Shown here one piece after another: positions 37,715-56,131 of a stretch of 64,000 nucleotides of DNA. The notes under the pieces are model-generated. The model was not told the DNA's origin. It was given only the letters and a program-made list of their open reading frames with translations, and did not search any database. The number at the start of each line of letters is the position of its first letter. Within the stretch, counting starts at the first letter, position 1. A program made the position numbers and the translations under genes. Source of the DNA: Chaenocephalus aceratus (Eukaryota > Chordata > Actinopteri > Perciformes > Channichthyidae); the NCBI GenBank assembly GCA_023974075.1, contig CM043798.1, positions 18,714,941 to 18,778,940 of the forward strand, read 5' to 3'.

Positions 37715-37926
37715 CTAATAAAAATAATAAACAAAAACACATAAAATAACTTTTTGAGGTCTGTAGATATTCAACTTTCTTTTGAATAATGTTGTTTTAA
37801 ATGTAAGAGTGCATAATAAAAGACAATAGAGGGCCAACATGTTAACTATGCAGTTAATCCATTCAACAATTACGTGTTTCCAAGATTCAGATTCAAAGGA
37901 TTGATGTCATAGCACATAGGCTACAG

Positions 37927-38140
37927 CAGCGTTTCTCAAAGTGTGGGGCGCGCTCCATTGGTGGGGCGCAGAGATGTGATAGGTGGGTCGCGAAAAAAAA
38001 AAAATTATTTAAAAAAAAAAAAAGATTAAATTCTTTTATTTTTTACATTTTTTTTTCACATTTATTTATTATTTATACACTGGTGGAATATCAAAACAAC
38101 GCCCCGCCCGGGGTGCAAAACGTATCAATGAAAAGCGACC
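37927..38140. repeat. hAT-like repeat end in left arm
   Basis: CAGCGTTTCTCAAAGTGTGGGGCGC resembles hAT ends of the CAGxGxTTCTCAAA class. Poly-A/T runs follow. The mirror is at about 55880-56032. Confidence 0.45.
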
Positions 38141-39139
38141 CTCTCCCACACAAAACAACACCTGTAGATAACCCAATTTGTGTTCTTTGAAATTGAAAAG
38201 GATATTGCATTGTGTTTGATACTTTCGTTGCAGTTGTATGTCTTAAGTGTAATTTGGCATGCTTTTATTTTGAAGGCAAGTTTACGCTGTTGATAGTTGT
38301 TGTTGCTATGGAAACAAGAAACGTTTCACAGCGGGCGGAACTTGTCATAAAGTCCGCGATAATAAAGCCCACCCATTTAGAGGGAAGATATGATTGGTCA
38401 ATTGTACTGTCATTTGACATTACTCTCATTCAGTTACTATAGCTGGCCCTCTGTGAATTCATAGCTGGACGTCCAATCAGCTCCTGTCTTCACAGACTCG
38501 CAGAGAGGAGCTTCTTTCATTTAACCCTTCACATTCAAACAGAAACTGAATAGGCAGATTCAAAGGATTTATTTCTTTGGAAATGTTATTTTAAATACAA
38601 TTTAATCAAGTTATTTTTGGTAAAACTATTGACAAATATTACTAAAAACATATTTAAAAAAAATATATAAAGAAAAATATAATTTGTTTTAATGTTTTTA
38701 AATATTATTTTGTAGAATATCTTAGGCCCACAGAGACAGGCTCGCCACTGGTAAACATCTCTCATACACACGTGTGAAACGCTCTCACAGACACACACAA
38801 CAGCGTTGCAGTCGGGAAGAAAAGCAATGTGGAGCGAGAGAGCGAGAGAGCAAGAGAGAGAGCACACCTTTATCTATTTAATAAAGTTGTACAAAATAAA
38901 GTAAGAAATCATTCCAATGTGTACTATAGGACAGTAAAAAGTTTAAAAGGGGAGTGATTAGTCAAATATGCATAAATAAAAAGAAAGAATGCTAACTAGG
39001 TAACATAAGATAAGAATAAACAAGTTTAAATGATTTGTTGTGATCATATTCTAAAGATGTTTGGATTATTGAAAAGTATACAGCTCCCTTTCATCTGAGT
39101 GTTGAGAGCTGTATCCATAAATTCATGTTGGGCTCAAAG

Positions 39140-39432
39140 TAGGGCTGCTCGATTATGGCAAAAATCATAATCTCGATTATTTGGGTCAATAATTGATATC
39201 ACGATTATTAAAAACGATTAACCATTTACTTTGAAAAACATTATTTATTGAAGAAAATAATTTGAAAAGTATGTTTTTAACAGTTGATTACCCTGAACTT
39301 TAAGTATAATTCAACTGAAAAACCTATTTAAAAAATAAATAAAATCGTTTTATTTCGATTATGTTGTTTTCATAATCGTTGCAAGCCAAAATCGTAATTG
39401 CGATTAAAATACGATTTAATTGAGCAGCCCTA
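39140..39432. mobile_element. hAT MITE, left-arm copy
   Basis: Inverted ends TAGGGCTGCTCGATTATG and CAATTGAGCAGCCCTA (inward sequence AATCG-rich), with a perfect 8-bp duplication GCTCAAAG at 39132-39139 and 39433-39440. The same insertion is present in the right arm. Confidence 0.9.
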
Positions 39433-39644
39433 GCTCAAAGTGCACCAGATTGATGCATTCAACTTCAACATTTAAAAAAAATCTTCCTGGGGGTGCATGC
39501 CCCCGGACCCTCGAGGATGTGACGTCCACCACCAAATAAAGCAGGTTAAAATAATTAAATTGCATACATTTTATTTTAGTAAACACTGAAAACGGGTCCC
39601 ACAGACCCAAACAGCACTCAAAGGTTAAAGGTAGCATATAATAA

Positions 39645-39890
39645 TGTTAAAATGTGCTAAATATATACACTGCAAAAAAACAAAAAAGAGGAGTAAAAGT
39701 AGCTCACGACTTGTTTTATTCTTTGAAAGTAACCCTCATCCTAAAAAAAGTTGGAGACCCCTGTTAACGATACATTTGACAATTTTAAGCTTGGCCTACC
39801 ATTTTATTGGAGCGATGAGGAACAGGTGGGGCTTGAAAAGGCCCACCTGTTCAAAGTGGGGAATGACAGAAAAAGTTTGAGAACCACTGC
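39645..39890. repeat. Two hAT-like ends in tandem
   Basis: Reverse complement of 54087-54340, where CAGTGGTTCTCAAACTTTTT and CAGGGGTCTCCAACTTTTTT ends can be read. These are recognisable hAT-type termini of short non-coding repeats. Confidence 0.55.
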
Positions 39891-40137
39891 CTTAGACCCT
39901 CACATCGTACAAGGAAAAACTTCCGGAGAAAACCAACAGTTTAAAGGGAAAAATGGGAGAAACCTCAGGGAGAGCAACAGAGGAGGGATCCCTCTCCCAG
40001 GACGGACAGACGTGCAATAGATGCCGTGTGTAAATTGAAAAGATAATACATTTGCAACATAGGTAGTCCAAATGTTTGGAAATGCATGTGTCTGTAATAA
40101 GAAGATGAATCCACAAGGATATCCATCCAGGACAGTA
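39891..40137. repeat. Left-specific dispersed repeat
   Basis: The only part of the left arm without a right-arm counterpart. Blocks such as AGGAGGGATCCCTCTCCCAG and GTGCAATAGATGCCGTG are, from memory, a common fish repeat. Confidence 0.5.
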
Positions 40138-40184
40138 GTGTTACCAATGCCATGTCAATCTCATTAGTATGCAGAAAAAGTGAC

Positions 40185-40358
40185 AGGTCGCCCCGCCCCT
40201 TTTTGGCCGGAAGTCCCGCCTTTTTTGACCGGAAGTCCCGCCTTTTTATTTTTATTTTGAAAACCGGAAGTCCCGTCTCATTATACCGGAAGTCCCGTCT
40301 CGTTCGACCGGATGTCCCGCCCCCACTTCCGGCGGATGTCCCGCCACCGCTTCCGGTT
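40185..40358 (+). promoter_or_regulatory. ETS/GABP plus GC-box array (left arm)
   Basis: Seven or more motifs: CCGGAAGTCCCGCC/TC at 40207, 40229, 40264 and 40286, CCGGATGTCCCGCC at 40308, and inverse TTCCGG at 40325-40332 and 40350-40358. CCGGAAGT is the ETS/GABP consensus; CCCGCC is a GC-box core. Three spacings are exactly 22 bp, about two helical turns. It lies about 390-560 bp upstream of the first virus-like gene and is mirrored in the other arm. Confidence 0.65.
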
Positions 40359-40634
40359 TACAAAATAAAATTAAAATAAAATTAAAATTAAAAAAATGAG
40401 AAAAATTAAATGCCGTTGTTTTCAATCAATTAATATACATTGTACAATATACAATGATATATGTCCCGCCTCCTAACCACTTCCTGTGTGGTTAATCCTG
40501 TATATAGTAGTGAATGTAACTTGCAAATAATATGAAATTAATCAAAAGTAAAGCATCTAAAAATATATATATTTAAACCTCTCTGTTTTTGCGAACAGGA
40601 CAGGAGGGGAGAAAACATATGGTGGAGGAGGGGG

Positions 40635-40637
<3 letters not shown>

Positions 40638-40665
<28 letters not shown>
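40638..40665. repeat. (CA)n microsatellite
   Basis: CA run between the enhancer-like array and the first gene, mirrored as (GT)n at about 50921-50950. Confidence 0.9.
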
Positions 40666-40667
<2 letters not shown>

Positions 40668-40746
40668 TCCCCGCCCCTCACCCCCTCTCCCTCTGTCTAA
40701 ATAAAAAGCCAGCGTCACTCTTAAATATTTTTCAAGTCGAGAGAAA

Positions 40747-41550
40747 ATGGCCAAAAGACGTCTTGATATGAATTTAATCAGCGAGACACCGGTGACAACT
40801 TACAACCATCCGTTGGGTGCTCCAATCAAGAAACGAATGAAGTTTGTATGCCGGGTTCAGACGCCTACAGCCGAAGAACTTCACGAAGAATGGACTCTAA
40901 AAAATGGCGATGTTTGGGGTTATATATTCAACTATATGGCTAATGAACTGCATTTCTACAATCTGAAGAATGGAGAAACGTATGGACCTCGTAGTGTTAA
41001 AGCGACACTGACCTCAACAGATTGGGCTGTGTTAACTCTGGTGTCTTCCCAAGATCTACACGCAACCATTGTATCGGAAGAAGTAGTGCATCAAGAAACC
41101 ATAGTGGAACCACCGGTGTACAAGATATTTGCAAAGAAAAGCAAAGAAACACAAACAACATGCGAGATTAAAGAAGAGCTTGCATCCTTACCCCTCAGTG
41201 TGGAGGAAAAAGAAGGAGATATTCCCACACAGCCAGAAGGGAGAAGAGTCCTGACAAGCACCGTCTGGGAAACTAAAAGCGGACCCTCTGGGCGTTGGTA
41301 TTACCGCTCAAGCCGTTTGGTGACTTTGGGTAAGGACTCCTCTGATTATTTTGTTTTGGAGTATTTTAATTCTACCTGCGGGGTATTTCAAACGTCCTTG
41401 AGGGTGCCTCTGACTGCATGGCTGGAAATGATTGATGGAAAAGCTACAAAGCTTAAAGAACTTTTTAAACAGAGTCAGACATCGATGGACATTATACTGG
41501 TGAAAAAGACCCTCACGTTTGCAGAGGACTCCGCCCCCCAGTCAACATAA
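40747..41550 (+). CDS. Virus-like gene 1: two-domain, possibly PC4-like protein, 267 aa (left)
   Basis: Intact intronless ORF starting in the context AAAATGG, 40 bp after a CTAAATAAAA TATA-like box (40697-40706). Basic clusters (residues 3-5 and 28-30) suggest nuclear import. Two similar modules (about 56-105 and 180-235) share a beta-rich pattern ending in LT..DW or PL..W plus a helix. The first has GETYGPRSVKATLTSTDWAVL, the second TCGVFQTSLRVPLTAWLEMI. This resembles the PC4/Sub1 ssDNA-binding fold, but I could not confirm it. An acidic linker joins them. The right-arm copy encodes the same protein. Identity outside this window is unknown. Confidence 0.7.
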   Translation: MAKRRLDMNLISETPVTTYNHPLGAPIKKRMKFVCRVQTPTAEELHEEWTLKNGDVWGYIFNYMANELHFYNLKNGETYGPRSVKATLTSTDWAVLTLVSSQDLHATIVSEEVVHQETIVEPPVYKIFAKKSKETQTTCEIKEELASLPLSVEEKEGDIPTQPEGRRVLTSTVWETKSGPSGRWYYRSSRLVTLGKDSSDYFVLEYFNSTCGVFQTSLRVPLTAWLEMIDGKATKLKELFKQSQTSMDIILVKKTLTFAEDSAPQST

Positions 41551-41623
41551 CAAGTCCCACCCACCTCAGCAGATCATTTAAAAAGTAAGGACCTCGCGAG
41601 GACATTTTTAGAGAGCAACAACC
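41551..41623 (+). promoter_or_regulatory. Leader/promoter module 1 (left)
   Basis: AAGTCCCACCCACCTCAGCA, then ATCATTTAAAAAG as a TATA-like box, then AAGGACCTCGCGAGGAC, and ATG within CCATGG. Versions of the same module precede the genes at 43060, 44294 and 46055. Confidence 0.6.
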
Positions 41624-42268
41624 ATGGATCCGAGAAAAACCACAATCTGCAGCCTGGATCAAACGCCTACAGGACCGCCATCCTCACCAACATTTTGGAC
41701 ACCAGATCTGGACAGCGCTATGGCTGACATTGATATCACGGGGTGGCTGGATATGCCTCAACCTCCACCAGAGTCTCCAGAGGAATCAACAACAGTAGGC
41801 GTTGATATGCCATGCTCTACTTGTGTTCCCGAGGGTGATGCTGCAGAACGTATTAGGACATCTGCATTCCTGAACACGGTAAAAGCGGTTGTAGTTCATC
41901 TGTTGGATAGAGTCGTGTACCTTTACAGAAAGGAAACATGTAACGGATGTCAAGTCGATCACCCCAGTCAGAGGCAACACGAGTGTTTATTCCCTACCGA
42001 TGAATACTATTTGGATCTACACTATGATGAAGTGGTAAAGAGACTGTGGACCGTTCGTTTCATTCCAGCCATTCGGGACGCTCTGCACCAGAACCACCTT
42101 CATGTGTCAGAGAGGAGAGTCTATGGAGCTACCGAGGCGATTCTGCACAACCTCAGAAACACCAGACTCTTTGAGGCTAAAATCGAGAAACTATACGAAC
42201 AGCTGGTAGAGAACGACGAGACCCAAATGAAGATTACAAGAGCAGCTTGGGCCTTCTGGCAACATTAG
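41624..42268 (+). CDS. Virus-like gene 2: Cys/His protein, 214 aa (left)
   Basis: Intronless ORF with CCATGG start context. The first 60 residues are Pro/Ser-rich and acidic, followed by CSTC (64-67). A helical region leads into a putative zinc site C106-x2-C109-x3-H113-PSQ-x2-H119-x-C121, then a mostly helical C-terminus. The ETCNGCQVDHPSQRQHEC pattern resembles motifs I recall in uncharacterised proteins of aquatic animals, some probably viral; a role is not assigned. A clear paralogue lies at 44294. An AATAAA signal (42386) follows 118 bp downstream. The right arm carries an identical protein. Confidence 0.7.
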   Translation: MDPRKTTICSLDQTPTGPPSSPTFWTPDLDSAMADIDITGWLDMPQPPPESPEESTTVGVDMPCSTCVPEGDAAERIRTSAFLNTVKAVVVHLLDRVVYLYRKETCNGCQVDHPSQRQHECLFPTDEYYLDLHYDEVVKRLWTVRFIPAIRDALHQNHLHVSERRVYGATEAILHNLRNTRLFEAKIEKLYEQLVENDETQMKITRAAWAFWQH

Positions 42269-42385
42269 GAAGAGTTTTTATTTTATTTTTGATACTTTTT
42301 CGTTAAAGTATGTTTTTATTTTTGATCTGTTTTTATATTTTACTTCTTTTGTAACATGTTTTTCTATACAAGGGTGTGACATATC

Positions 42386-42391
42386 AATAAA
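42386..42391 (+). terminator. Poly(A) signal AATAAA after gene 2 (left)
   Basis: ATATCAATAAAATGC follows the gene 2 stop by about 118 bp and is mirrored at 49195-49200. It suggests RNA polymerase II transcription of genes 1-2. Confidence 0.6.
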
Positions 42392-42759
42392 ATGCATTGT
42401 AAGAAAAACTGTAGATTTATTTAAACATTTGTCCTACGCGTATAAAACAAATGTCCGCGAGCCTAAAGGCTGGCGGGTTTTTTTAAATAGTCTGAATGAG
42501 CAAAATTAAGTACTTTTTCTGAGCAGATTTTCTTTAAGACTGTGACTCTTAACACACCAACCCCCCGAGAGACAGACATACTCATCCCCTTTTCAACGTA
42601 TTTTGTTTTTGTCTTTCTCGCTTTTTTTTTTTGGAAAAAACTACATAGTGATTGCTAGCAAAAATACAACATGCAACTAATACATTATACAATATTACGA
42701 CTTTTGGCGATATTTTCAACACAATATACTTGTACCCTTTTTTTTTTTTTTTCATTAAT

Positions 42760-42968
42760 TTGTATTGAATTGAGTTTTCTTTTTTTTGATTTTTCAACAT
42801 ACTATATGACTTTTACATATTTCTGACGTACTATACTTTTTTGACTTTTTTCTGTAGAATCTTGACAAAACTATTACTTGTTCTTAAATGATGACCTATT
42901 GCTGGAGATGAGATGAAAAAGCTACAACGCTTAAAGAACTTTTTTCTAAAAACTCTCAATTCTACACT
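42760..42968 (+). repeat. Tandem unit A: gene 1 3'-end relic plus upstream sequence
   Basis: TTGTATTGAATTGAGTTTTC through GCTGGAGATGAGATGAAAAA and CTTAAAGAACTTTTTT recurs about 1.22 kb downstream at 43990-44190. The last part is a decayed copy of the gene 1 C-terminus (WLEMIDGKATKLKELF region). It shows that a block ending in the promoter module was duplicated. Confidence 0.75.
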
Positions 42969-43059
42969 GACTCCCCCCACTCAACGCAATAAGTCCCACC
43001 CCACTCAGCAAATCATCTAAAACGAAGGACCCCACCAAGACGACCGTTGAAAACTAGCC
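42969..43059 (+). promoter_or_regulatory. Leader/promoter module 2 (left)
   Basis: CTCAACGCAATAAGTCCCAC, CTCAGCAAATCATCTAAAAC (TATA-like), GAAGGACC, and a start in AGCCATGG. Close match to modules 3 and 4. Confidence 0.6.
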
Positions 43060-43257
43060 ATGGATCTGAGAAAAACCAAGTCTGATGTAGCCTACCCTTA
43101 TTATCACCAGGATAATGGATATGGGCTTAATGACTGGATGGTACAAAGTAGGGGAGAGGATGTTCCCGAAGAAGAGCTCTCCTCTATATGTAATAGTATT
43201 GTAAACGAAACATTTAAAGTGGTCCTGGAATCTTCATTTTTCAGAAACATTCTGTAA
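43060..43257 (+). pseudogene. Virus-like gene 3: short chimeric ORF, 65 aa (left)
   Basis: The first 39 residues (starting MDLRKTKSDVAYPYYHQD) match the N-terminus of the central gene at 46055. The rest (IVNETFKVVLESSF) is a fragment of the gene at 44866. It therefore looks like a recombinant remnant rather than a functional gene, although the promoter module and start are intact. The right arm has the same ORF. Confidence 0.6.
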
Positions 43258-43279
43258 CATTACCGAAGAAATTACACTT

Positions 43280-43960
43280 ACTCTTTTTCTTGTGTTACCA
43301 AGATACTTTTAGATACAGTTTGGTGTCTAAAAACTGAAACTGGTTGAATATGAAGTACTTTATAAGGAATTCGGATTCTTTTAAAGGCAGATTTTGGCTT
43401 TTTTTCTCTTGCCAAGATACTTTTAGACACACTTTGAGGGATGCAAAACCTTAAAACTAGAAAATGAAGTACAGTCTGATTAGATTTTTTCTTAAAGACT
43501 GTTTCTCTAAAAGGTAAGTTTGTGATTTTAACAATTTTCCCTGACACTTGGCAGATTTGTGTGTAATTCTCTCACAAAGGAACTGTAAGATACACTTTTT
43601 ATATATGCAAAACCTTAAACTTTTTTTTTTTTTTTTTTGAAAATAAAATACTTTGTCTGAATACATTTTCTTTAAAGGCACTTTTTTTTATTTTAACGCT
43701 ATTTCAGTGGAAAAATACATTTTTGTTGACATCAAGGCTTTTTTTCTCTTTTCTTGTGTTACTAAGATACTTTTAGACACACTTTGGTGTATGCAACACT
43801 TGTTCAGTTAAACAATGGGGTTTTTTTTTTCTGATAAACTTACATATTTTAGTTATTTTATGTTACCAAGATACTTTGAGATACACCCTGATGTACGCAA
43901 CACTTAACAAAGGGTATAATATGAAGTACTTGGTAAGGAAGGGGTTTTTCTTTAAGGGTG
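43280..43960. repeat. Degenerate repeat array, left arm
   Basis: Four or more copies of TGTTACCAAGATACTTTTAG followed by ACACACTTTGGTGTATGCAA-type sequence, spaced 100-350 bp, with AGTGTATCTTACAG and AATCTGCCAAGTGT elements on the opposite strand. The same family, in inverse orientation, fills the palindrome centre (45485-45965). Confidence 0.7.
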
Positions 43961-44196
43961 CAAAACTTTAGAACAGGGTAAAATATTCATTAAATTGTAT
44001 TGAATTGAGTTTTCTTTTTTGATTTTCAACATACTATTTTGTACACAATGACTTTTCCATATTTCTGATAAACTATACTTTTTTCCGTAAAATCATGACA
44101 AACTATTACTTATTCTTAAATGTCACCTATTGCTGGAGATGAGATGAAAAAGCTACAACGCTTAAAGAACTTTTTTTCTAAAAACTCTCAATTCTA

Positions 44197-44293
44197 TAAT
44201 TGACTCCCCCATTCAATGCAATGAGCCCCACCCTCCACTCAGCAAATCATCTAAAACGAAGGACCTCGCTAAGACGATCGTTGTAAACTAGCC
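44197..44293 (+). promoter_or_regulatory. Leader/promoter module 3 (left)
   Basis: CCCATTCAATGCAATGAGCC, CTCAGCAAATCATCTAAAAC (TATA-like), GAAGGACCTCGCTAAGAC, and a start in AGCCATGG. Confidence 0.6.
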
Positions 44294-44854
44294 ATGGAGC
44301 AGAGAAAAGCCAAGACTCCCCCCGCGAGTTGCAGTCAGGAACAGAGTCCACCAGCAACACCACCATGTGGGAAACCCGAATCTTGCAGTACTACTGCTGC
44401 TGATGCTACTCCTCGGGTCAAGAAGTCTCAGTTTAGGGACACAGTGAAAGCGGAGTTGTTTTATATTCTGGAGATGGTGATGTATCGATACAGAAAAGAA
44501 ATCTGCAAAGAATGCCGACGCAGTAACCCCGACCAGAGGCAACACGATTGTCGGAATGACATGCCCGATTTCTTCTTCAGAAACAATTACAAAGCGTTAA
44601 TGAAAAGACTTTGGCTCGCCGACTTCGTTGCAGTGATTGACCAGAGTCTTATGGAAAAAGGCATTTGCGAGGATAAACTGAGGATAGGACGCGCTTCGGA
44701 AGCTTTTCTGCACAAGCTTGTAAAATGCAGATGCCTCAAGGAGAGACTTGAAATATCCATACAGAGTTGGATGGAGAAGAAGAAGACTAACAAACAGCAG
44801 TCGGATGGAGAAGAAGCCAGGGACTTGTTCAATGCAGTGACTTTTTTTCTTTAA
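44294..44854 (+). CDS. Virus-like gene 4: Cys/His paralogue, 186 aa (left)
   Basis: Shares with gene 2 the MxxRK start, a Pro/Ser-rich N-terminus, YRYRKEICKEC, and QRQHDC. The putative site keeps C71, C74, H84 and C86, but the first His of gene 2 (H113, in HPSQ) is Asn here (SNPDQ), so zinc binding may differ or rely on fewer ligands. A helical region with LWLADFVAVIDQ follows, and a Lys-rich tail. The left copy is full length; the right copy stops at residue 162. Confidence 0.65.
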   Translation: MEQRKAKTPPASCSQEQSPPATPPCGKPESCSTTAADATPRVKKSQFRDTVKAELFYILEMVMYRYRKEICKECRRSNPDQRQHDCRNDMPDFFFRNNYKALMKRLWLADFVAVIDQSLMEKGICEDKLRIGRASEAFLHKLVKCRCLKERLEISIQSWMEKKKTNKQQSDGEEARDLFNAVTFFL

Positions 44855-44865
44855 GTAAAATAAAA

Positions 44866-45330
44866 ATGGGAAACTACTTTGCAAAACGCTCTGTATATAT
44901 TGATCATAATGTAGTCATTACCCGTTTAATAAATGTGGTGATGGGAACGATTGAAAACAGAACGAGTAGTGACCCCTGTGTAAAAAGAATGGCCGAAGTT
45001 TGTAAACTGGAAGACATTTTGGATATCGTTCGTTCTAGCAGTACTATTCAGGGTCATTGGGAAACGGTTGTAAACGAAACATTTAAAGTGGTCCTGGAAT
45101 CTTCATTTTCCGAAACATTCTGTAACATTATCTCAGAAATGAAACAAACATCAAAAGTGTATCATGTGCTCTCATTGTATGCTCTGTTTGTAGATGTAAT
45201 GCATCTGTGTGTTGAAAACAGCATACACGTGAATATTTTGACTGAAGTGAAAAAACTCCATCACGATATCTCCAGTAATATGGGGAATTCTAAGCTGGAG
45301 ACTGTCCTGGGGATGCTACAATCAGTATAA
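44866..45330 (+). CDS. Virus-like gene 5: helical protein, possibly Bcl-2-like, 154 aa (left)
   Basis: Begins 12 bp after the gene 4 stop with no promoter module of its own, so it may share its transcript. All-helical pattern: an N-terminal helix with VITRLINVVMGTIE, a central segment with HWETVVNETFKVVLES, and a hydrophobic helix YHVLSLYALFVDVMHLCV. Its place and amphipathicity recall the BH1 helix region of small viral Bcl-2/E1B-19K proteins. The canonical NWGR is not present, so this is only a suggestion. The arm homology ends at codon 126, so the last 28 residues are unique to this copy. Confidence 0.55.
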   Translation: MGNYFAKRSVYIDHNVVITRLINVVMGTIENRTSSDPCVKRMAEVCKLEDILDIVRSSSTIQGHWETVVNETFKVVLESSFSETFCNIISEMKQTSKVYHVLSLYALFVDVMHLCVENSIHVNILTEVKKLHHDISSNMGNSKLETVLGMLQSV

Positions 45331-45484
45331 CTATTGATTTTGTGTTTGAAAAAAATAAAAAAAGTGTTTTTTACATCTAAAAACTGTTGTCATCATTATA
45401 GCAAGGGGAGCGTGTCTGATACATGTGTATTACAGTCCTTCTTGTTGTGTTTTTCAGTGTTTTCTGTGTGTCTGTACACACAAA

Positions 45485-45965
45485 GCACACTTCATTATCT
45501 ACTTTTCAGCTTTTTTAAAAAGAAAAGTGTATCTTTCGGTAACTTTCTCAGAGAATTTAAGCATAAATCTGTCAAATGTTCAAAACAGCCTTGTTTCACT
45601 GAAATACCCTCAAAATGACAAACTGCCATTAAGAGTCAGATTCTTAACCAAATCTACTGACACAAAGTCCTTCATTATCTACTTTTCAGCTTTTAATACA
45701 AAAGTGTATCTTTCGGTAACCTTCTTGAGAGAATTAAGCATAGATCTGTCAAAGATTCTTAACGAAATCTACTGACACAAAGTCTACTTCATTATCTACT
45801 TTTCAGTTTTTATACACAAAGTGTATCTTTCAGTAACTTTACCAGAGAATTTAAGCATAAATCTGTCAAATGTTCAAAACAGCCTTGTTTCACTGAAATA
45901 CCCTCAAAATGACAAACTGCCATTAAGAGTCAGAATCCAAGCGAAATCTCCTCAAACAGAGTACT
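45485..45965. repeat. Central ~180-bp degenerate tandem repeats
   Basis: Three units start near 45487, 45668 and 45787 with CTTCATTATCTACTTTTCAG and continue AAGTGTATCTTTCGGTAAC, AATCTGTCAAATGTTC and AAACTGCCATTAAGAGTCAG. The middle unit is shortened. The family matches the arrays inside both arms. Confidence 0.75.
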
Positions 45966-45984
45966 TTCTACAGATGAAGCCTCC

Positions 45985-46054
45985 CACTCAACGCAATATG
46001 TCCCACCCACTCAGCAAATCATATAAAACTAAGGATGACCGTTAAAAACTAGCC
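45985..46054 (+). promoter_or_regulatory. Leader/promoter module 4 (centre)
   Basis: CCACTCAACGCAATATGTCC, CTCAGCAAATCATATAAAAC (the best TATA box of the set), AAGGATGACCGTT, and a start in AGCCATGG. Confidence 0.6.
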
Positions 46055-46417
46055 ATGGATCTGAGAAAAACCAAGTCTGACGTAGCCTGCCCTTATTATC
46101 ACCAGGATAATGGATACGGGCTTAATGACTGGATGTTACAAAGTAGGGGAGAGGATGTCCCAGAAGAAGAGCTTTCTTTAAAAGATGGTATTATAGATAA
46201 CCTTTATAGAAACAGTATATCTCATACCACTCGCCAAGATCGCAAACGACAATTAGCAGAAAAGAATAGAAAAAGTAAAGAAAAACGAAGAAAAAGCAAC
46301 ATGAAAAGGAGAAGAAAAATAAAAAGTAAACGCAGAATGCGAATCAGTCAAAATATTCACGTGTATGCTGTTTTCAACACACAGATGCATTACATCTACA
46401 AACAGAGCATACAATGA
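46055..46417 (+). CDS. Virus-like gene 6: basic protein, 120 aa (centre)
   Basis: Starts MDLRKTKSDVACPYYHQD like gene 3, with an acidic GEDVPEEEL stretch near residue 37. A strongly basic domain follows (about 60-98, e.g. RQDRKRQLAEKNRKSKEKRR) of the kind found in nuclear or nucleic-acid-binding proteins. The C-terminal 25 residues come from antisense reading of right-arm gene 5, so the end of the protein may be an artefact of the inversion junction. Confidence 0.5.
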   Translation: MDLRKTKSDVACPYYHQDNGYGLNDWMLQSRGEDVPEEELSLKDGIIDNLYRNSISHTTRQDRKRQLAEKNRKSKEKRRKSNMKRRRKIKSKRRMRISQNIHVYAVFNTQMHYIYKQSIQ

Positions 46418-46723
46418 GAGCACATGATACACTTTTGATGTTTGTTTCATTTCTGAGATAATGTTACAGAATGTTTCGGAAAATGAAGATTCCAGGACCA
46501 CTTTAAATGTTTCGTTTACAACCGTTTCCCAATGACCCTGAATAGTACTGCTAGAACGAACGATATCCAAAATGTCTTCCAGTTTACAAACTTCGGCCAT
46601 TCTTTTTACACAGGGGTCACTACTCGTTCTGTTTTCAATCGTTCCCATCACCACATTTATTAAACGGGTAATGACTACATTATGATCAATATATACAGAG
46701 CGTTTTGCAAAGTAGTTTCCCAT
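46253..46723 (-). pseudogene. Virus-like gene 5, right copy with altered C-terminus
   Basis: Identical to the left copy for about 125 residues, then the reading frame crosses the palindrome boundary (46344-46348). It ends in an unrelated Phe/Ser-rich tail read antisense to the basic domain of gene 6. The conserved C-terminal 28 residues are missing. Confidence 0.6.
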
Positions 46724-46806
46724 TTTTATTTTACTTAAAGAAAAAAAGTCACTGCATTGAACAAGTCCCTGGCTTCTTCTCCATCCGACTGCTGTTTGTT
46801 AGTCTT

Positions 46807-47295
46807 CTACTTCTCCATCCAACTCTGTATGGATATTTCAAGTCTCTCCTTGAGGCATCTGCATTTTACAAGCTTGTGCAGAAAAGCTTCCGAAGCGCGT
46901 CCTATCCTCAGTTTATCCTCGCAAATGCCTTTTTCCATAAGACTCTGGTCAATCACTGCAACGAAGTCGGCGAGCCAAAGTCTTTTCATTAACGCTTTGT
47001 AATTGTTTCTGAAGAAGAAATCGGGCATGTCATTCCGACAATCGTGTTGCCTCTGGTCGGGGTTACTGCGTCGGCATTCTTTGCAGATTTCTTTTCTGTA
47101 TCGATACATCACCATCTCCAGAATATAAAACAACTCCGCTTTCACTGTGTCCCTAAACTGAGACTTCTTGACCCGAGGAGTAGCATCAGCAGCAGTAGTA
47201 CTGCAAGATTCGGGTTTCCCACATGGTGGTGTTGCTGGTGGACTCTGTTCCTGACTGCAACTCGCGGGGGGAGTCTTGGCTTTTCTCTGCTCCAT
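46807..47295 (-). pseudogene. Virus-like gene 4, right copy (premature stop)
   Basis: Matches the left copy for 162 residues, then an AAG codon is TAG, removing the Lys-rich tail of 24 residues. The Cys/His site is unchanged. The remaining downstream sequence is still present. Confidence 0.7.
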
Positions 47296-47395
47296 GGCTA
47301 GTTTACAACGATCGTCTTAGCGAGGTCCTTCGTTTTAGATGATTTGCTGAGTGGAGGGTGGGGCTCATTGCATTGAATGGGGAGTCAATTATAGA
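47296..47395 (-). promoter_or_regulatory. Leader/promoter module 3 (right)
   Basis: Mirror of 44197-44293, essentially unchanged, including the TCATCTAAAAC box. Confidence 0.55.
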
Positions 47396-47629
47396 ATTGA
47401 GAGTTTTTAGAAAAAAAGTTCTTTAAGCGTTGTAGCTTTTTCATCTCATCTCCAGCAATAGGTGACATTTAAGAATAAGTAATAGTTTGTCATGATTTTA
47501 CGGAAAAAAGTATAGTTTATCAGAAATATGGAAAAGTCATTGTGTACAAAATAGTATGTTGAAAATCAAAAAAGAAAACTCAATTCAATACAATTTAATG
47601 AATATTTTACCCTGTTCTAAAGTTTTGCA

Positions 47630-48310
47630 CCCTTAAAGAAAAACCCCTTCCTTACCAAGTACTTCATATTATACCCTTTGTTAAGTGTTGCGTACATCAG
47701 GGTGTATCTCAAAGTATCTTGGTAACATAAAATAACTAAAATATGTAAGTTTATCAGAAAAAAAAACCCCATTGTTTAACTGAACAAGTGTTGCATACAC
47801 CAAAGTGTGTCTAAAAGTATCTTAGTAACACAAGAAAAGAGAAAAAAAGCCTTGATGTCAACAAAAATGTATTTTTCCACTGAAATAGCGTTAAAATAAA
47901 AAAAAGTGCCTTTAAAGAAAATGTATTCAGACAAAGTATTTTATTTTCAAAAAAAAAAAAAAAAAAGTTTACGGTTTTGCATATATAAAAAGTGTATCTT
48001 ACAGTTCCTTTGTGAGAGAATTACACACAAATCTGCCAAGTGTCAGGGAAAATTGTTAAAATCACAAACTTACCTTTTAGAGAAACAGTCTTTAAGAAAA
48101 AATCTAATCAGACTGTACTTCATTTTCTAGTTTTAAGGTTTTGCATCCCTCAAAGTGTGTCTAAAAGTATCTTGGCAAGAGAAAAAAAGCCAAAATCTGC
48201 CTTTAAAAGAATCCGAATTCCTTATAAAGTACTTCATATTCAACCAGTTTCAGTTTTTAGACACCAAACTGTATCTAAAAGTATCTTGGTAACACAAGAA
48301 AAAGAGTAAG
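47630..48310. repeat. Degenerate repeat array, right arm
   Basis: Mirror of 43280-43960. Confidence 0.7.
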
Positions 48311-48329
48311 TGTAATTTCTTCGGTAATG

Positions 48330-48527
48330 TTACAGAATGTTTCTGAAAAATGAAGATTCCAGGACCACTTTAAATGTTTCGTTTACAATACTATTACATA
48401 TAGAGGAGAGCTCTTCTTCGGGAACATCCTCTCCCCTACTTTGTACCATCCAGTCATTAAGCCCATATCCATTATCCTGGTGATAATAAGGGTAGGCTAC
48501 ATCAGACTTGGTTTTTCTCAGATCCAT
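48330..48527 (-). pseudogene. Virus-like gene 3, right copy
   Basis: Same 65-residue chimeric ORF as 43060-43257. Confidence 0.6.
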
Positions 48528-48618
48528 GGCTAGTTTTCAACGGTCGTCTTGGTGGGGTCCTTCGTTTTAGATGATTTGCTGAGTGGGGTGGGACTTATTG
48601 CGTTGAGTGGGGGGAGTC
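48528..48618 (-). promoter_or_regulatory. Leader/promoter module 2 (right)
   Basis: Mirror of 42969-43059. Confidence 0.55.
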
Positions 48619-49194
48619 AGTGTAGAATTGAGAGTTTTTAGAAAAAAGTTCTTTAAGCGTTGTAGCTTTTTCATCTCATCTCCAGCAATAGGTCATCATT
48701 TAAGAACAAGTAATAGTTTTGTCAAGATTCTACAGAAAAAGTCAAAAAAGTATAGTACGTCAGAAATATGTAAAAGTCATATAGTATGTTGAAAAATCAA
48801 AAAAAAGAAAACTCAATTCAATACAAATTAATGAAAAAAAAAAAAAAAGGGTACAAGTATATTGTGTTGAAAATATCGCCAAAAGTCGTAATATTGTATA
48901 ATGTATTAGTTGCATGTTGTATTTTTGCTAGCAATCACTATGTAGTTTTTTCCAAAAAAAAAAAGCGAGAAAGACAAAAACAAAATACGTTGAAAAGGGG
49001 ATGAGTATGTCTGTCTCTCGGGGGGTTGGTGTGTTAAGAGTCACAGTCTTAAAGAAAATCTGCTCAGAAAAAGTACTTAATTTTGCTCATACAGACTATT
49101 TAAAAAAACCCGCCAGCCTTTAGGCTCGCGGACATTTGTTTTATACGCGTAGGACAAATGTTTAAATAAATCTACAGTTTTTCTTACAATGCAT

Positions 49195-49200
49195 TTTATT
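49195..49200 (-). terminator. Poly(A) signal after gene 2 (right)
   Basis: TTTATT on the plus strand, the mirror of the left-arm AATAAA. Confidence 0.6.
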
Positions 49201-49317
49201 GATATGTCACACCCTTGTATAGAAAAACATGTTACAAAAGAAGTAAAATATAAAAACAGATCAAAAATAAAAACATACTTTAACGAAAAAGTATCAAAAA
49301 TAAAATAAAAACTCTTC

Positions 49318-49962
49318 CTAATGTTGCCAGAAGGCCCAAGCTGCTCTTGTAATCTTCATTTGGGTCTCGTCGTTCTCTACCAGCTGTTCGTATAGTTTCT
49401 CGATTTTAGCCTCAAAGAGTCTGGTGTTTCTGAGGTTGTGCAGAATCGCCTCGGTAGCTCCATAGACTCTCCTCTCTGACACATGAAGGTGGTTCTGGTG
49501 CAGAGCGTCCCGAATGGCTGGAATGAAACGAACGGTCCACAGTCTCTTTACCACTTCATCATAGTGTAGATCCAAATAGTATTCATCGGTAGGGAATAAA
49601 CACTCGTGTTGCCTCTGACTGGGGTGATCGACTTGACATCCGTTACATGTTTCCTTTCTGTAAAGGTACACGACTCTATCCAACAGATGAACTACAACCG
49701 CTTTTACCGTGTTCAGGAATGCAGATGTCCTAATACGTTCTGCAGCATCACCCTCGGGAACACAAGTAGAGCATGGCATATCAACGCCTACTGTTGTTGA
49801 TTCCTCTGGAGACTCTGGTGGAGGTTGAGGCATATCCAGCCACCCCGTGATATCAATGTCAGCCATAGCGCTGTCCAGATCTGGTGTCCAAAATGTTGGT
49901 GAGGATGGCGGTCCTGTAGGCGTTTGATCCAGGCTGCAGATTGTGGTTTTTCTCGGATCCAT
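49318..49962 (-). CDS. Virus-like gene 2: Cys/His protein, 214 aa (right)
   Basis: Protein identical to the left copy (41624-42268), with the full C106/C109/H113/H119/C121 set. Perfect protein identity after a duplication that carries other differences points to recent origin, gene conversion or selection. Confidence 0.7.
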   Translation of the reverse strand: MDPRKTTICSLDQTPTGPPSSPTFWTPDLDSAMADIDITGWLDMPQPPPESPEESTTVGVDMPCSTCVPEGDAAERIRTSAFLNTVKAVVVHLLDRVVYLYRKETCNGCQVDHPSQRQHECLFPTDEYYLDLHYDEVVKRLWTVRFIPAIRDALHQNHLHVSERRVYGATEAILHNLRNTRLFEAKIEKLYEQLVENDETQMKITRAAWAFWQH

Positions 49963-50035
49963 GGTTGTTGCTCTCTAAAAATGTCCTCGCGAGGTCCTTA
50001 CTTTTTAAATGATCTGCTGAGGTGGGTGGGACTTG
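49963..50035 (-). promoter_or_regulatory. Leader/promoter module 1 (right)
   Basis: Mirror of 41551-41623. Confidence 0.55.
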
Positions 50036-50839
50036 TTATGTTGACTGGGGGGCGGAGTCCTCTGCAAACGTGAGGGTCTTTTTCACCAGTATAATGTCCA
50101 TCGATGTCTGACTCTGTTTAAAAAGTTCTTTAAGCTTTGTAGCTTTTCCATCAATCATTTCCAGCCATGCAGTCAGAGGCACCCTCAAGGACGTTTGAAA
50201 TACCCCGCAGGTAGAATTAAAATACTCCAAAACAAAATAATCAGAGGAGTCCTTACCCAAAGTCACCAAACGGCTTGAGCGGTAATACCAACGCCCAGAG
50301 GGTCCGCTTTTAGTTTCCCAGACGGTGCTTGTCAGGACTCTTCTCCCTTCTGGCTGTGTGGGAATATCTCCTTCTTTTTCCTCCACACTGAGGGGTAAGG
50401 ATGCAAGCTCTTCTTTAATCTCGCATGTTGTTTGTGTTTCTTTGCTTTTCTTTGCAAATATCTTGTACACCGGTGGTTCCACTATGGTTTCTTGATGCAC
50501 TACTTCTTCCGATACAATGGTTGCGTGTAGATCTTGGGAAGACACCAGAGTTAACACAGCCCAATCTGTTGAGGTCAGTGTCGCTTTAACACTACGAGGT
50601 CCATACGTTTCTCCATTCTTCAGATTGTAGAAATGCAGTTCATTAGCCATATAGTTGAATATATAACCCCAAACATCGCCATTTTTTAGAGTCCATTCTT
50701 CGTGAAGTTCTTCGGCTGTAGGCGTCTGAACCCGGCATACAAACTTCATTCGTTTCTTGATTGGAGCACCCAACGGATGGTTGTAAGTTGTCACCGGTGT
50801 CTCGCTGATTAAATTCATATCAAGACGTCTTTTGGCCAT
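50036..50839 (-). CDS. Virus-like gene 1: two-domain, possibly PC4-like protein, 267 aa (right)
   Basis: Protein identical to the left copy (40747-41550), including both modules and the basic N-terminus. The upstream TATA-like box, microsatellite and ETS array are also preserved in mirror image. Confidence 0.7.
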   Translation of the reverse strand: MAKRRLDMNLISETPVTTYNHPLGAPIKKRMKFVCRVQTPTAEELHEEWTLKNGDVWGYIFNYMANELHFYNLKNGETYGPRSVKATLTSTDWAVLTLVSSQDLHATIVSEEVVHQETIVEPPVYKIFAKKSKETQTTCEIKEELASLPLSVEEKEGDIPTQPEGRRVLTSTVWETKSGPSGRWYYRSSRLVTLGKDSSDYFVLEYFNSTCGVFQTSLRVPLTAWLEMIDGKATKLKELFKQSQTSMDIILVKKTLTFAEDSAPQST

Positions 50840-50918
50840 TTTCTCTCGACTTGAAAAATATTTAAGAGTGACGCTGGCTTTTTATTTAGACAGAGGGAGA
50901 GGGGGTGAGGGGCGGGGA

Positions 50919-50951
<33 letters not shown>

Positions 50952-51218
50952 CCCCCTCCTCCACCATATGTTTTCTCCCCTCCTGTCCTGTTCGCAAAAA
51001 CAGAGAGGTTTAAATATATATATTTTTAGATGCTTTACTTTTGATTAATTTCATATTATTTGCAAGTTACATTCACTACTATATACAGGATTAACCACAC
51101 AGGAAGTGGTTAGGAGGCGGGACATTATCCTATGTATATTAATTGATTGAAAACAACGGCATTTAATTTTTCTCATTTTTTAAATTTTTATTTTATTTTT
51201 ATTTTATTTAGTAAACCG

Positions 51219-51392
51219 GAAGCGGTGGCGGGACATCCGCCGGAAGTGGGGGCGGGACATCCGGTCGAACGAGACGGGACTTCCGGTATAATGAGACGGG
51301 ACTTCCGGTTTTCAAAATAAAAATAAAAAGGCGGGACTTCCGGTCAAAAAAGGCGGGACTTCCGGCCAAAAAGGGGCGGGGCGACCTGTCAC
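51219..51392 (-). promoter_or_regulatory. ETS/GABP plus GC-box array (right arm)
   Basis: Mirror of 40185-40358 with GGCGGGACTTCCGG and GACGGGACTTCCGG units and the same 22-bp spacings. Confidence 0.65.
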
Positions 51393-52474
51393 TTTTTCTG
51401 CATACTAATGAGATTGACATGGCATTGGTAACACTACTCAGGACCTATGATCCAGGACCACAGCCACGACTCAAGATCCAGGGCTCTCGATCCAGGACAC
51501 AGGACCGCAGGATCATCCATGACTCCGGATCCCGGCGTATATAGACACCAAAAAGAAAGAAATTTGGGGAAGCTGGGTTAATCGGAACATGAGAGTACAC
51601 AGGTATCGACAGAGAGAAGGAAGAAGTAAGATGTCCCCCAACAAACTAAGCCTATATCAGCAAAACTAGGGGCTGAATCTAATCAGCCCCAACTATAAGC
51701 TTTATCAAAAAGGAAGGTCTTAAGCGCACTCTTAAAAACGGATAGGGTGTCTGCCGCCCGAACACAAACTGGAAGCTGATTCCACAAATGTGGAGCTTGA
51801 TAAGAAAAGGCTATCATGTATACTATCATGTTTAATCATGTTTAATGCCGTTTGCTAAGGCTTGATAAATCGCTCATAGACACAGGAACTCTGGAACTCT
51901 AAGAACACCATATATTTGGTAGATTTGGCAGCTGATTTTACACAACACGTTTGTTTTATTTAATTTAAGTGTTGGATAGAGTTAGTAGTAGTAGTAGTAG
52001 TAGTGCGAGGGTTGAGACCAAGCGGCAAACTCTGGGGAACAGCCGGGAAGCCAATACGGAAGTGCCACACACTGCAGTTCATATATTGGCCGATAGGCGA
52101 TGGCTGTAGAAAGGAGCAATTTCCATAGGCCCCCATGTTAAAATGCCCAACTTTACAGCAGAAAAAAACATGTTTCTATCCCTGGCTCCATACATTTTTA
52201 TTATCGATATAGTTAGATTCCACCTTCATGATTATGGATCTGTGAGTGAATTGTTTTCTAACACGACCCTTTTATTTATATTAGGTCTTAAAGTTTTTGC
52301 ATTAATTAGGGCGTGGTCACGTTGATGGACATGTACATGCCTCACTGTCAGCTAACAGCAACTTGTCCACTCTGCTAGGCTACAACCATAGAGGCTACAA
52401 CGTTAGTTAGTCATAGTACTGTACTTGACCCTTTAGCTTTAGCCGTGTTCGTGGTGATATACCAGACAATTAAG

Positions 52475-53457: not shown

Positions 53458-54086
53458 GTACAGATCCTTTTTAAAAAATAATAATAACTTGGTTCCATTT
53501 GTGAGTGTAAATTGTTGTTACTAATTAAATACATGTTATACATCATACAATGCTAAATAAGTGGTATGGCACAGCTTGCACATCAGTGATGAGTAATGTT
53601 CTTTTGATTAAAGGCCAAATTAAGATTTTGCCAGTTAAGTATAGAAACATAGAAATCGAATTTTTTTGCAAACCATCACATTTCTCTTCAATTTATGCAA
53701 AGACTCTTTATCATAGATAGAGAATTGCCATTTCCCCCCCACATACTCTATGTTAAAAACAGATGAATTATATTACCTTTTTTAACATTATTTTAATAGC
53801 AACATTCATTCATCTGTTGTCATCTTATAACTTATTTATCTTAACAGCTATCACTGTAAAAAAAAAAAGAGATTTAATTTCATTTTACTATACAATATTT
53901 ATCTTTACATTCTGTTCTTGCATATGTCTTATTATATTTACGTGTGTATAGATTTCTGCCTGCACTAATTTATTATTCTTAATTTAATTTTGAATTTATT
54001 TTATTGTTTTATGTCTTATATAACTATGTTGCATTGTTGGAGGAGCTCGGGACAGATGATTTTCATTGCCATTCCCACACTGTAGC

Positions 54087-54340
54087 CCAGTGGTTCTCAA
54101 ACTTTTTCTGTCATTCCCCACTTTGAACAGGTGGGCCTTTTCAAGCCCCACCTGTTCCTCATCGCTCCAATAAAATGGTAGGCCAAGCTTAAAATTGTCA
54201 AATGTATCGTTCTATAACAGGGGTCTCCAACTTTTTTTAGGATGAGGGTTACTTTAAAAAAATAAAACAAGTCGTGAGCTACTTTTACTCCTCTTTTTTG
54301 TTTTTTTGCAGTGTATATATTTAGCACATTTTAACATTAT
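54087..54340. repeat. Two hAT-like ends (right arm)
   Basis: CAGTGGTTCTCAAACTTTTT at 54087 and CAGGGGTCTCCAACTTTTTT at about 54219, both typical hAT-type termini. Mirror of 39645-39890. Confidence 0.55.
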
Positions 54341-54548
54341 TATATGCTACCTTTAACCTTTGAGTGCTGTTTGGGTCTGTGGGACCCGTTTTCAGTGTTT
54401 ACTAAAATAAAATGTATGCAATTTAATTATTTTAACCTGCTTTATTTGGTGATGGACGTCACATCCTCGAGGGTCCGGGGGCATGCACCCCCAGGAAGAT
54501 TTTTTTTAAATGTTGAAGTTGAATGCATCAATCTGGTGCACTTTGAGC

Positions 54549-54842
54549 TAGGGCTGCTCAATTAAATCGTATTTTAATCGCAATTACGATTTTGGCTTGC
54601 AACGATTATGAAAACAACATAATCGAAATAAAACGATTTTATTTATTTTTTAAATAGGTTTTTCAGTTGAATTATACTTAAAGTTCAGGGTAATCAACTG
54701 TTAAAAACATACTTTTCAAATTATTTTCTTCAATAAATTGATGTTTTTCAAAGTAAATGGTTAATCGTTTTTAATAATCGTGATATCAATTATTGACCCA
54801 AATAATCGAGATTATGATTTTTGCCATAATCGAGCAGCCCTA
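54549..54842. mobile_element. hAT MITE, right-arm copy
   Basis: Mirror of 39140-39432 with the same duplication (CTTTGAGC at 54541-54548 and 54843-54850). It was present before the inverted duplication. Confidence 0.9.
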
Positions 54843-56131
54843 CTTTGAGCCCAACATGAATTTATGGATACAGCTCTCAACACTCAGATGAAAGGGAGCT
54901 GTATACTTTTCAATAATCCAAACATCTTTAGAATATGATCACAACAAATCATTTAAACTTGTTTATTCTTATCTTATGTTACCTAGTTAGCATTCTTTCT
55001 TTTTATTTATGCATATTTGACTAATCACTCCCCTTTTAAACTTTTTACTGTCCTATAGTACACATTGGAATGATTTCTTACTTTATTTTGTACAACTTTA
55101 TTAAATAGATAAAGGTGTGCTCTCTCTCTTGCTCTCTCGCTCTCTCGCTCCACATTGCTTTTCTTCCCGACTGCAACGCTGTTGTGTGTGTCTGTGAGAG
55201 CGTTTCACACGTGTGTATGAGAGATGTTTACCAGTGGCGAGCCTGTCTCTGAGGGCCTAAGATATTCTACAAAATAATATTTAAAAACATTAAAACAAAT
55301 TATATTTTTCTTTATATATTTTTTTTAAATATGTTTTTAGTAATATTTGTCAATAGTTTTACCAAAAATAACTTGATTAAATTGTATTTAAAATAACATT
55401 TCCAAAGAAATAAATCCTTTGAATCTGCCTATTCAGTTTCTGTTTGAATGTGAAGGGTTAAATGAAAGAAGCTCCTCTCTGTGAGTCTGTGAAGACAGGA
55501 GCTGATTGGACGTCCAGCTATGAATTCACAGAGGGCCAGCTATAGTAACTGAACGAGAGTAATGTCAAATGACAGTACAATTGACCAATCATATCTTCCC
55601 TCTAAATGGGTGGGCTTTATTATCGCGGACTTTATGACAAGTTCCGCCCGCTGTGAAACGTTTCTTGTTTCCATAGCAACAACAACTGTCAACAGCGTAA
55701 ACTTGCCTTCAAAATAAAAGCATGCCAAATTACACTCAAGACATACAACTGCAACGAAAGTATCAAACACAATGCAATATCCTTTTCAATTTCAAAGAAC
55801 ACAAATTGGGTTATCTACAGGTGTTGTTTTGTGTGGGAGAGGGTCGCTTTTCATTGATACGTTTTGCACCCCGGGCGGGGCGTTGTTTTGATATTCCACC
55901 AGTGTATAAATAATAAATAAATGTGAAAAAAAAAATGTTTTTTTTTTAAATAATTTTTTTTTTTCGCGACCCACCTATCACATCTCTGCGCGCCCCACCA
56001 GTGGGGTGCGCCCCACACTTTGAGAAACGCTGGTCTAAGGACAGAGGGTGTCATATTGTCATACTGATATTCTGTACAAACTGTGAAGTCCAAATGTGTA
56101 ACATTTGTGATATTGGGCTATATAGATAAAC

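Follow-up and report, generated by a model that had tools for sequence, protein, structure and literature searches.

Introduction

Foldback-type non-autonomous DNA transposons have long inverted arms, carry no enzymes of their own and are moved in trans, and Mavericks (Polintons) replicate by protein-primed strand displacement. According to the available excerpt of Barreat and Katzourakis (PMC8097293), vertebrate Mavericks are marked by (AGT)2//(ACT)2 ends and a 6-bp target-site duplication (TSD), their intact terminal inverted repeats (TIRs) span 46-1,447 bp, and they are thought to be endogenous viruses, of which particles have not been observed. A palindrome within such an element was reported in 2008: an excerpted description places an insert of ~20 kb upstream of the Chinook salmon gh1 gene, in which a 10-kb palindrome forms part of a Polinton (PMC2584663). 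Teratorn, a fusion of a herpesvirus with piggyBac, measures 41-182 kb and has 18-bp TIRs and another transposase, as excerpted from its description (PMC6431247). Here we analyze a palindromic element of 11.3 kb in a 64,000-nucleotide stretch of the Chaenocephalus aceratus genome (C14:18,714,941-18,778,940, called the window below; names beginning with C refer to contigs of one 1.06-Gb genome assembly) and compare it with its relatives in the same genome and with the systems mentioned above.

Results

A Maverick-type palindrome inserted as one unit

The window element (Table 1) has AGTAGT/ACTACT termini and a perfect 6-bp TSD, CAGGAC, outside both arms; apart from this TSD, the left and right flanks differ. 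Two inverted copies of its 16-base terminus are present within the window, against 0.03 expected by chance. Because the TSD lies outside both arms, the palindrome entered this site as one finished unit: it was inserted ready-made. The termini, the TSD and genes 1 and 2 assign it to the Maverick/Polinton (adintovirus-type) lineage, where an earlier note on this DNA had seen no nameable element. The arms exceed the published Maverick TIR range.

The same note had described a giant palindrome with arms of 7.3 kb. The palindrome is real, with near-perfect inverted arms (10 substitutions and four indels, with 5,095 bases aligned) on either side of a 1,098-bp spacer, but its arms measure 5.1 kb; the remaining 2 kb at either outer edge belong to a separate hAT-like element. 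In alignments the spacer is collinear with the inner arm ends of sister elements and is therefore the inner end of the left arm without its right-hand counterpart.

The element comprises the left accessory genes 1 and 2 of a Maverick, plus genes 3-5. The core genes of a complete Maverick (PolB, integrase, ATPase, protease, capsid) were not found in it: tblastn of the corresponding open reading frames (ORFs) or ORF pieces of the resident Maverick against the 64 kb, with partial ORFs as PolB, ATPase and protease queries, gave no match, in agreement with the earlier description of a virus-derived gene set without polymerase, capsid and integrase. The sole trace of a core ORF is one decayed fragment per arm, which going by the published gene order would be pz. 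Rfam returned nothing at the gathering score for positions 40,000-51,600.

A dispersed family of palindromes

Genome-wide, gene 1 has at least 144 scored matches (the best of 1,671 candidates) and gene 3 at least 150 (the best of 1,129). For gene 1, this disposes of the possibility, raised in the earlier note against its own reading, of an ordinary single-copy fish gene. When neighbouring matches up to 20 kb apart are taken as a pair, all 21 gene 1 pairs among the scored matches face inward, as do 51 of the 52 gene 3 pairs (none outward, one tandem, 18.7 kb apart); the window and 50 other places thus carry an inward gene 3 pair. The two pair lists overlap, and some places may represent two assemblies of one insertion; C192 and C283 are one insertion on two contigs (flanks differing at 1 of 700 positions). 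The recurrence of the palindrome at many places argues against an assembly artefact. The spacing between paired gene 3 copies is 3.50-3.52 kb in 29 of 51 cases and 4.75-4.785 kb in nine. The former pairs (e.g., C1:24,279,044) make up the largest palindromic group, known from gene 3 alone. A gene 1 copy on the same strand within 12 kb upstream accompanies at least 19 of the 150 gene 3 matches listed.

A perfect 6-bp TSD was found in all seven distinct insertions of which both termini were read: CAGGAC in the window, GGTGTC (C192/C283), CACCTA (C15), GATGTA (C12), CATGTT (C775), TAGCTA (C5:16.48M) and CATGCT (C9). This count covers insertions read at both ends; C17:16.48M, C23, C13:20.58M and C13:1.89M were read at one.

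The fetched loci were sorted into types labelled for this analysis. Type A (C192/C283, C15, C17:16.48M, C23, C13:20.58M, C55, C5:32.2M, C13:1.89M) is composed of genes 1 and 2, a shortened integrase, a gene 5 fragment and genes 3, 4 and 5, followed by the mirror image where read; it spans 14.35 kb at C192, and the arms of this type measure ~6.8 kb. The integrase extends to codon 239 of 381 in C192/C283, C15, C23 and C13:20.58M, to codon 301 in C17:16.48M and C55, and to codon 119 in C5:32.2M. Between nearest sisters, type A loci differ by 0-0.5%, an indication of recent spread and not of a fixed host locus. Type B (the window, C12, C775, C5:16.48M) has no integrase match; gene 3 and most of gene 2 are lost in its members other than the window. 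Type C (C17:7.0M, C13:17.5M, C859, C24:5.6M, C14:6.67M, C22, C6) is without gene 2 and shows PolB fragments outside gene 1 at three of seven loci. In a fourth form of 16.3 kb, at C9, integrase pieces reach the chromodomain end.

Capsid-bearing Mavericks in the same genome

The earlier note had proposed looking for the same cluster next to capsid or polymerase genes elsewhere, and genes 1 and 2 are indeed found there. The Maverick at C24:8.114-8.130 Mb carries genes 1 and 2, followed by a 381-aa integrase (rve 2e-12, chromodomain 3.9e-7) and, on one strand, by ORFs in the published order minor capsid, pw, major capsid, protease; the opposite strand has ORFs at the pz, pm, ATPase and PolB positions (PolB 3.6e-13). 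The protease, ATPase and PolB frames are short as read there. The name of the capsid ORF follows from its position in the published order of genes and from the surrounding integrase and PolB; Pfam gave no match for it at 0.1 and PDB none that was credible, and a search of viral contigs for its relatives gave four matches, none confirmed. Genes 3-5 were not found in this copy, the one core-bearing copy compared. Near its right end (L036:4295-4765) lies a second, diverged and inverted integrase fragment (57-58% at the amino acid level), a hint of fold-back events in the parent's past.

This Maverick has nearly the same left end as the type A palindromes, with identities of 99.9, 99.8 and 99.9% for genes 1, 2 and the integrase. 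Between the window and type A the identity is 85-86% in the TIR region, 98.5% in gene 1 and 93.6% in gene 2. Ends and flanking sequence are thus common to the family of the window and a resident core-bearing element. Capsid matches fall at no fewer than 67 places genome-wide (merged from 79 of 108 rows). Among the 144 scored gene 1 copies, 42 are paired and 20 have a capsid gene downstream, without any overlap, and the other 82 have neither; a capsid match within 15 kb, a partial one, accompanies one of the 51 gene 3 pairs.

A shared spacer and arms that resemble each other

A central spacer of 698 bp is complete at C5:32.2M, C55, C17:16.48M, C23, C13:20.58M and C13:1.89M and present in two stretches at C15 (98.5-100%, all type A). 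It recurs in type B at C5:16.48M (97.8-99.5%) and in type C at C6 (96.5%), C14:6.67M (98.4% over 577 bp) and C22 (94.4%, partial). From this spacer, common to types A, B and C, we infer one ancestral palindrome. The centre of C192 (C192:63501-73000) is 91% self-complementary where five sister loci have the unique spacer, and C283 is rearranged differently. A spacer-free palindrome at C192 was considered and dropped in view of these five loci and of C192 and C283 being one insertion; the two centres probably reflect assembly errors, a caution for palindromes of this kind.

Arm-to-arm divergence is 0.03-1.0% in all six elements measured, and the mirrored arms of the seven type C loci and C9 are 98.6-99.9% identical, except at C22 (95.5-98.4%). 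In most compared elements the two arms resemble one another more closely than they do arms from other subfamilies. A tree of 28 arms built from genes 3-4 places the two window arms as sisters (100/99) and likewise those of C22 (100/100); the arms of C14:6.67M are identical to each other in these genes, and so are those of C6. This tree does not separate the type A arms and C13:17.5M.

The similarity between types differs along the element. Type A compared to C6 and C14:6.67M shows 97.4-97.6% in gene 4 and 96.5-98.4% in the spacer, vs. 87-88% in gene 1 and 85% in gene 3, with both arms alike. Compared to C22, the values are 94-96% (gene 4), 88-89% (gene 1) and, in its two arms, 91% and 95% (gene 3). 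The patterns of C6 and C14:6.67M fit an exchange in one arm that would then have been copied to the other, whereas C22 is less clear.

Genes of the window element and their constraint

Genes 1 and 2 have uninterrupted frames and encode identical proteins in both arms, in line with the earlier note. The mirror-image gene set it described holds for these two genes; the right-arm copies of genes 3 (internal TAG stop) and 4 (matching to codon 127 of 154) break the symmetry. CCATGG starts, which had been attributed to the genes of each arm, occur at genes 2, 3 and 5 and are absent at genes 1 and 4, and the reported poly(A) signals are present as AATAAA downstream of genes 2 and 4. At the centre junction (46,343-46,344) gene 5 on the forward strand is fused with gene 4 on the reverse strand, giving a hybrid frame of 120 codons.

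Genes 2 and 3 are paralogues (33% over 155 columns, E 3e-29) and their proteins have a C..C..H..C motif in common. Relatives of gene 2 occur in other fish, including the icefish Champsocephalus esox (86% over 45%), in a lamprey protein (44% over 63%) and in sequence-archive contigs; viral contigs yielded 65 pattern matches, none confirmed. Genes 1-4 have no fold or family match above threshold in Pfam, PDB, BFVD or PHROGs. None of the six window proteins matched PHROGs at 0.01, neither gene 1 nor the gene 2 profile matched PDB sequences at E<=1, and a structure search with the gene 2 model (mean predicted local distance difference test, pLDDT, 70; residues ~70-214 mostly >70) gave 68 PDB and 78 BFVD matches at E<=10, none of them at E<=0.001. 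A PC4-like identity of gene 1, suggested by eye, was not supported (hhalign probability 0.1%, no Pfam match, AlphaFold pLDDT 35), as was a Bcl-2-like identity of gene 4 (best Pfam value 0.0059 for an unrelated domain of unknown function, below the cut-off; best PDB E 0.19).

Ratios of nonsynonymous to synonymous substitution rates (dN/dS) against the window, calculated without pairs having fewer than eight changes, are 0.24-0.29 for gene 1 of type A, C24 and type C (0.26-0.28 for type C) and 0.61-0.72, on few changes, for type B. They amount to 0.25-0.27 for gene 2, 0.66-0.78 for gene 3 and 0.40-0.71 for gene 4. Among other copies, some of which carry one stop, gene 3 gives 0.73-0.80 with one pair at 1.14; the integrase copies give 0.78-0.96 on ~21 changes. 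An internal stop is absent from 110 of the 144 best gene 1 copies (of 1,671 candidates, counted by hand). These ratios indicate that genes 1 and 2 have come under constraint at some point in a history that takes in capsid-bearing Mavericks; the case for constraint on genes 3 and 4 is weak.

Neighbouring hAT-like copies

The palindrome is accompanied by two inverted elements of ~2 kb, which we take to be hAT from their ends, the left one 244 bp and the right one 2,649 bp away from it. Their 8-bp flanks (37,919-39,897; 54,080-56,040; sequences in Table 1) are swapped between the copies, being reverse complements crosswise. This is the pattern expected from two independent hAT-like insertions followed by a recombinational inversion of 39,890-54,087.

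Table 1. Coordinates of the features identified in the 64-kb window.
Feature	Position	Strand	Basis or remark
Whole palindromic element, 11,305 bp	40134..51438	.	AGTAGT...ACTACT; inverted terminus and TSD on each side
Left TSD, 6 bp	40128..40133	.	CAGGAC
Right TSD, 6 bp	51439..51444	.	CAGGAC
Left arm, 5.1 kb	40134..45245	+
Right arm, 5.1 kb	46344..51438	-	mirror copy
Unpaired centre	45246..46343	+	inner end of left arm, right counterpart missing; collinear with + arm of sister elements
Gene 1, 267 aa	40747..41550	+	ORF and homology; also in capsid-bearing Mavericks
Gene 1, mirror copy	50036..50839	-	identical protein
Gene 2, 214 aa	41624..42268	+	predicted helical; C..C..H..C (CxxC-HPSQ-H-C)
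Gene 2, mirror copy	49318..49962	-	identical protein
Decayed Maverick core-ORF fragment	42285..42506	+	tblastn; vs. L018:6813-7301, codons 3-79, 45% aa
Core-ORF fragment, mirror copy	49080..49301	-	tblastn; 44%
Decayed gene 5 fragment, 43 codons	43060..43188	+
Gene 5 fragment, mirror copy	48399..48527	-
Gene 3, 186 aa	44294..44854	+	paralogue of gene 2
Gene 3, mirror copy	46738..47295	-	TAG stop inside
Gene 4, 154 aa	44866..45330	+	no family match above cut-off
Gene 4, mirror copy	46343..46723	-	match to codon 127 only
Gene 5	46055..46417	+	Lys/Arg-rich; terminates in fused frame at centre
Left hAT-like element	37927..39889	+	outside palindrome; flanks GGCTACAG / CCTTAGAC
Right hAT-like element, inverted	54088..56032	-	outside palindrome; flanks CTGTAGCC / GTCTAAGG

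Discussion

In this study, we propose with a probability of roughly 0.82 that the feature in the window is one insertion of a non-autonomous, satellite-like palindromic derivative of a Maverick (Polinton/adintovirus-type), which would be moved in trans and whose arms either fold-back copying or gene conversion would keep similar. Polymerase and integrase would be supplied in trans by the resident capsid-bearing Mavericks. Strand displacement would yield a single strand able to fold back on itself; one arm might then serve as template for the other, or repair might remove mismatches from the hairpin stem, so that the arms stay alike and the spacer remains unpaired. Alternatively, the identity of the arms may stem from gene conversion between them after insertion. 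In the window copy, a later central deletion would have taken the inner end of the right arm.

Several observations weigh against this proposal. The 698-bp spacer is absent or shorter than 100 bp at the window, C12, C775, C9 and four of the seven type C loci; with the spacer lost there, a common origin of these loci rests on the remaining evidence, and its loss at several loci is in line with a central deletion in the window. C192 and C283 have centres unlike those of their sisters and unlike one another. C24:5.6M is lopsided, and the right arm of C13:1.89M is damaged. No AGTAGT terminus was found at the seven type C loci within ~1 kb outside gene 1 (~10 kb to the left at C17:7.0M), and the left terminus of the C24:8.1M Maverick is degraded. 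On the arm tree, the two arms of C859 and those of C5:32.2M are not each other's nearest relatives, and the type A arms are too alike for arm-to-arm copying to be told from recent spread. Type A retains the catalytic core of the integrase (commonly codons 1-239 of 381) without the chromodomain, and some relatives may therefore be partly helper-independent. Finally, we infer both trans mobilization and fold-back copying from sequence comparison.

The palindrome could be imagined to have arisen on site, by local inverted duplication or head-to-head fusion after a normal Maverick insertion, as the earlier note had implied. Palindromes can form by fold-back repair, and the genome holds a capsid-bearing Maverick whose left end is similar. 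Yet, a single TSD encloses the whole palindrome here and in six other insertions, each with its own TSD, and several subfamily members at unrelated loci have one spacer and a fixed spacing in common, making this origin highly improbable. A hairpin-like mis-join that mirrored one real arm during assembly deserves no more credit: the centres of C192 and C283 do look wrong and the right-arm genes 3 and 4 are damaged, but the same layout recurs at 51 gene 3 and 21 gene 1 places (overlapping lists), the arms differ by substitutions and the flanks differ beyond the shared TSD. The window palindrome is thus very probably not an assembly error. Equally, it is very improbable that the fish keeps these genes as a domesticated cluster, for example against Mavericks. 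The frames are intact, and endogenous virophages, in the excerpted account, mitigate giant-virus infection in a protist (PMC10945749), a precedent for such a role; the family is, however, dispersed in many copies, with type A sisters only 0-0.5% apart.

A more serious competitor is a passive non-autonomous transposon, in which the genes are decaying passengers and the ends alone matter, similar to a miniature inverted-repeat transposable element. The high dN/dS values of gene 3 and, partly, gene 4 and the loss of gene 3 and most of gene 2 in three type B loci speak in its favour, and capsid-bearing lineages may be the source of the purifying signal seen in genes 1 and 2. We consider it possible though doubtful in view of the many gene 1 matches without internal stop and the low dN/dS of this gene between the window and type C. 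These data do not separate passive hitch-hiking from true satellite behaviour. Conversely, the family may represent a self-standing lineage of palindromic satellite viruses, retaining a central core (genes 4-5 and spacer) and exchanging its outer arms for those of an active Maverick, with fold-back stamping the change onto both arms. The close gene 4 and spacer and the distant genes 1 and 3 between type A and C6 or C14:6.67M are compatible with such a lineage, and so is the 99.8-99.9% identity of the type A left end (genes 1, 2 and integrase) to a capsid-bearing Maverick. C22 lacks this clean contrast, which lowers the odds slightly, and we regard this lineage as unlikely.

Seen as a palindromic Maverick derivative, this large and partly very young family resembles the leftovers expected from fold-back errors in a protein-primed linear genome and may constitute an indirect vertebrate record of protein-primed replication. 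Should the arms really evolve in concert and the spacer not, fold-back copying and gene conversion could be tested against each other in this family. Helper-satellite pairs are known from protists and bacteria, and the family might be their equivalent in a vertebrate. At the same time, it is a warning that TIRs several kilobases long may escape notice or be assembled wrongly.

Among known systems, foldback-type transposons share with the window element the long inverted arms, the lack of own enzymes and, presumably, the movement in trans, but the window element has several open virus genes and descends from a virus-like element with protein-primed replication. From Teratorn, as excerpted (PMC6431247), it is set apart by its size (11.3 kb) and its Maverick ends with 6-bp TSD, a distinction drawn on size and ends, herpesvirus genes not having been searched for. 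The salmon Polinton-1-like insert (PMC2584663) provides the precedent of a palindrome within a Polinton insert of a fish genome; it is likened here by description only, since it concerns one locus whose gene content, ends, TSD and family are not described in the available excerpt. We found no description in the open-access literature of a palindromic Maverick family, its ends, its gene content or its concerted arms. Compared to the vertebrate Mavericks as excerpted (PMC8097293), the window element differs by its arms of ~5.1 kb (~6.8 kb in type A), by a unit that is palindromic as a whole and by polymerase, capsid, ATPase and protease not being found. It has in common with them the AGTAGT//ACTACT ends, the 6-bp TSD, the intronless ORFs, the accessory genes that lie next to the integrase in Mavericks and a matching left end.

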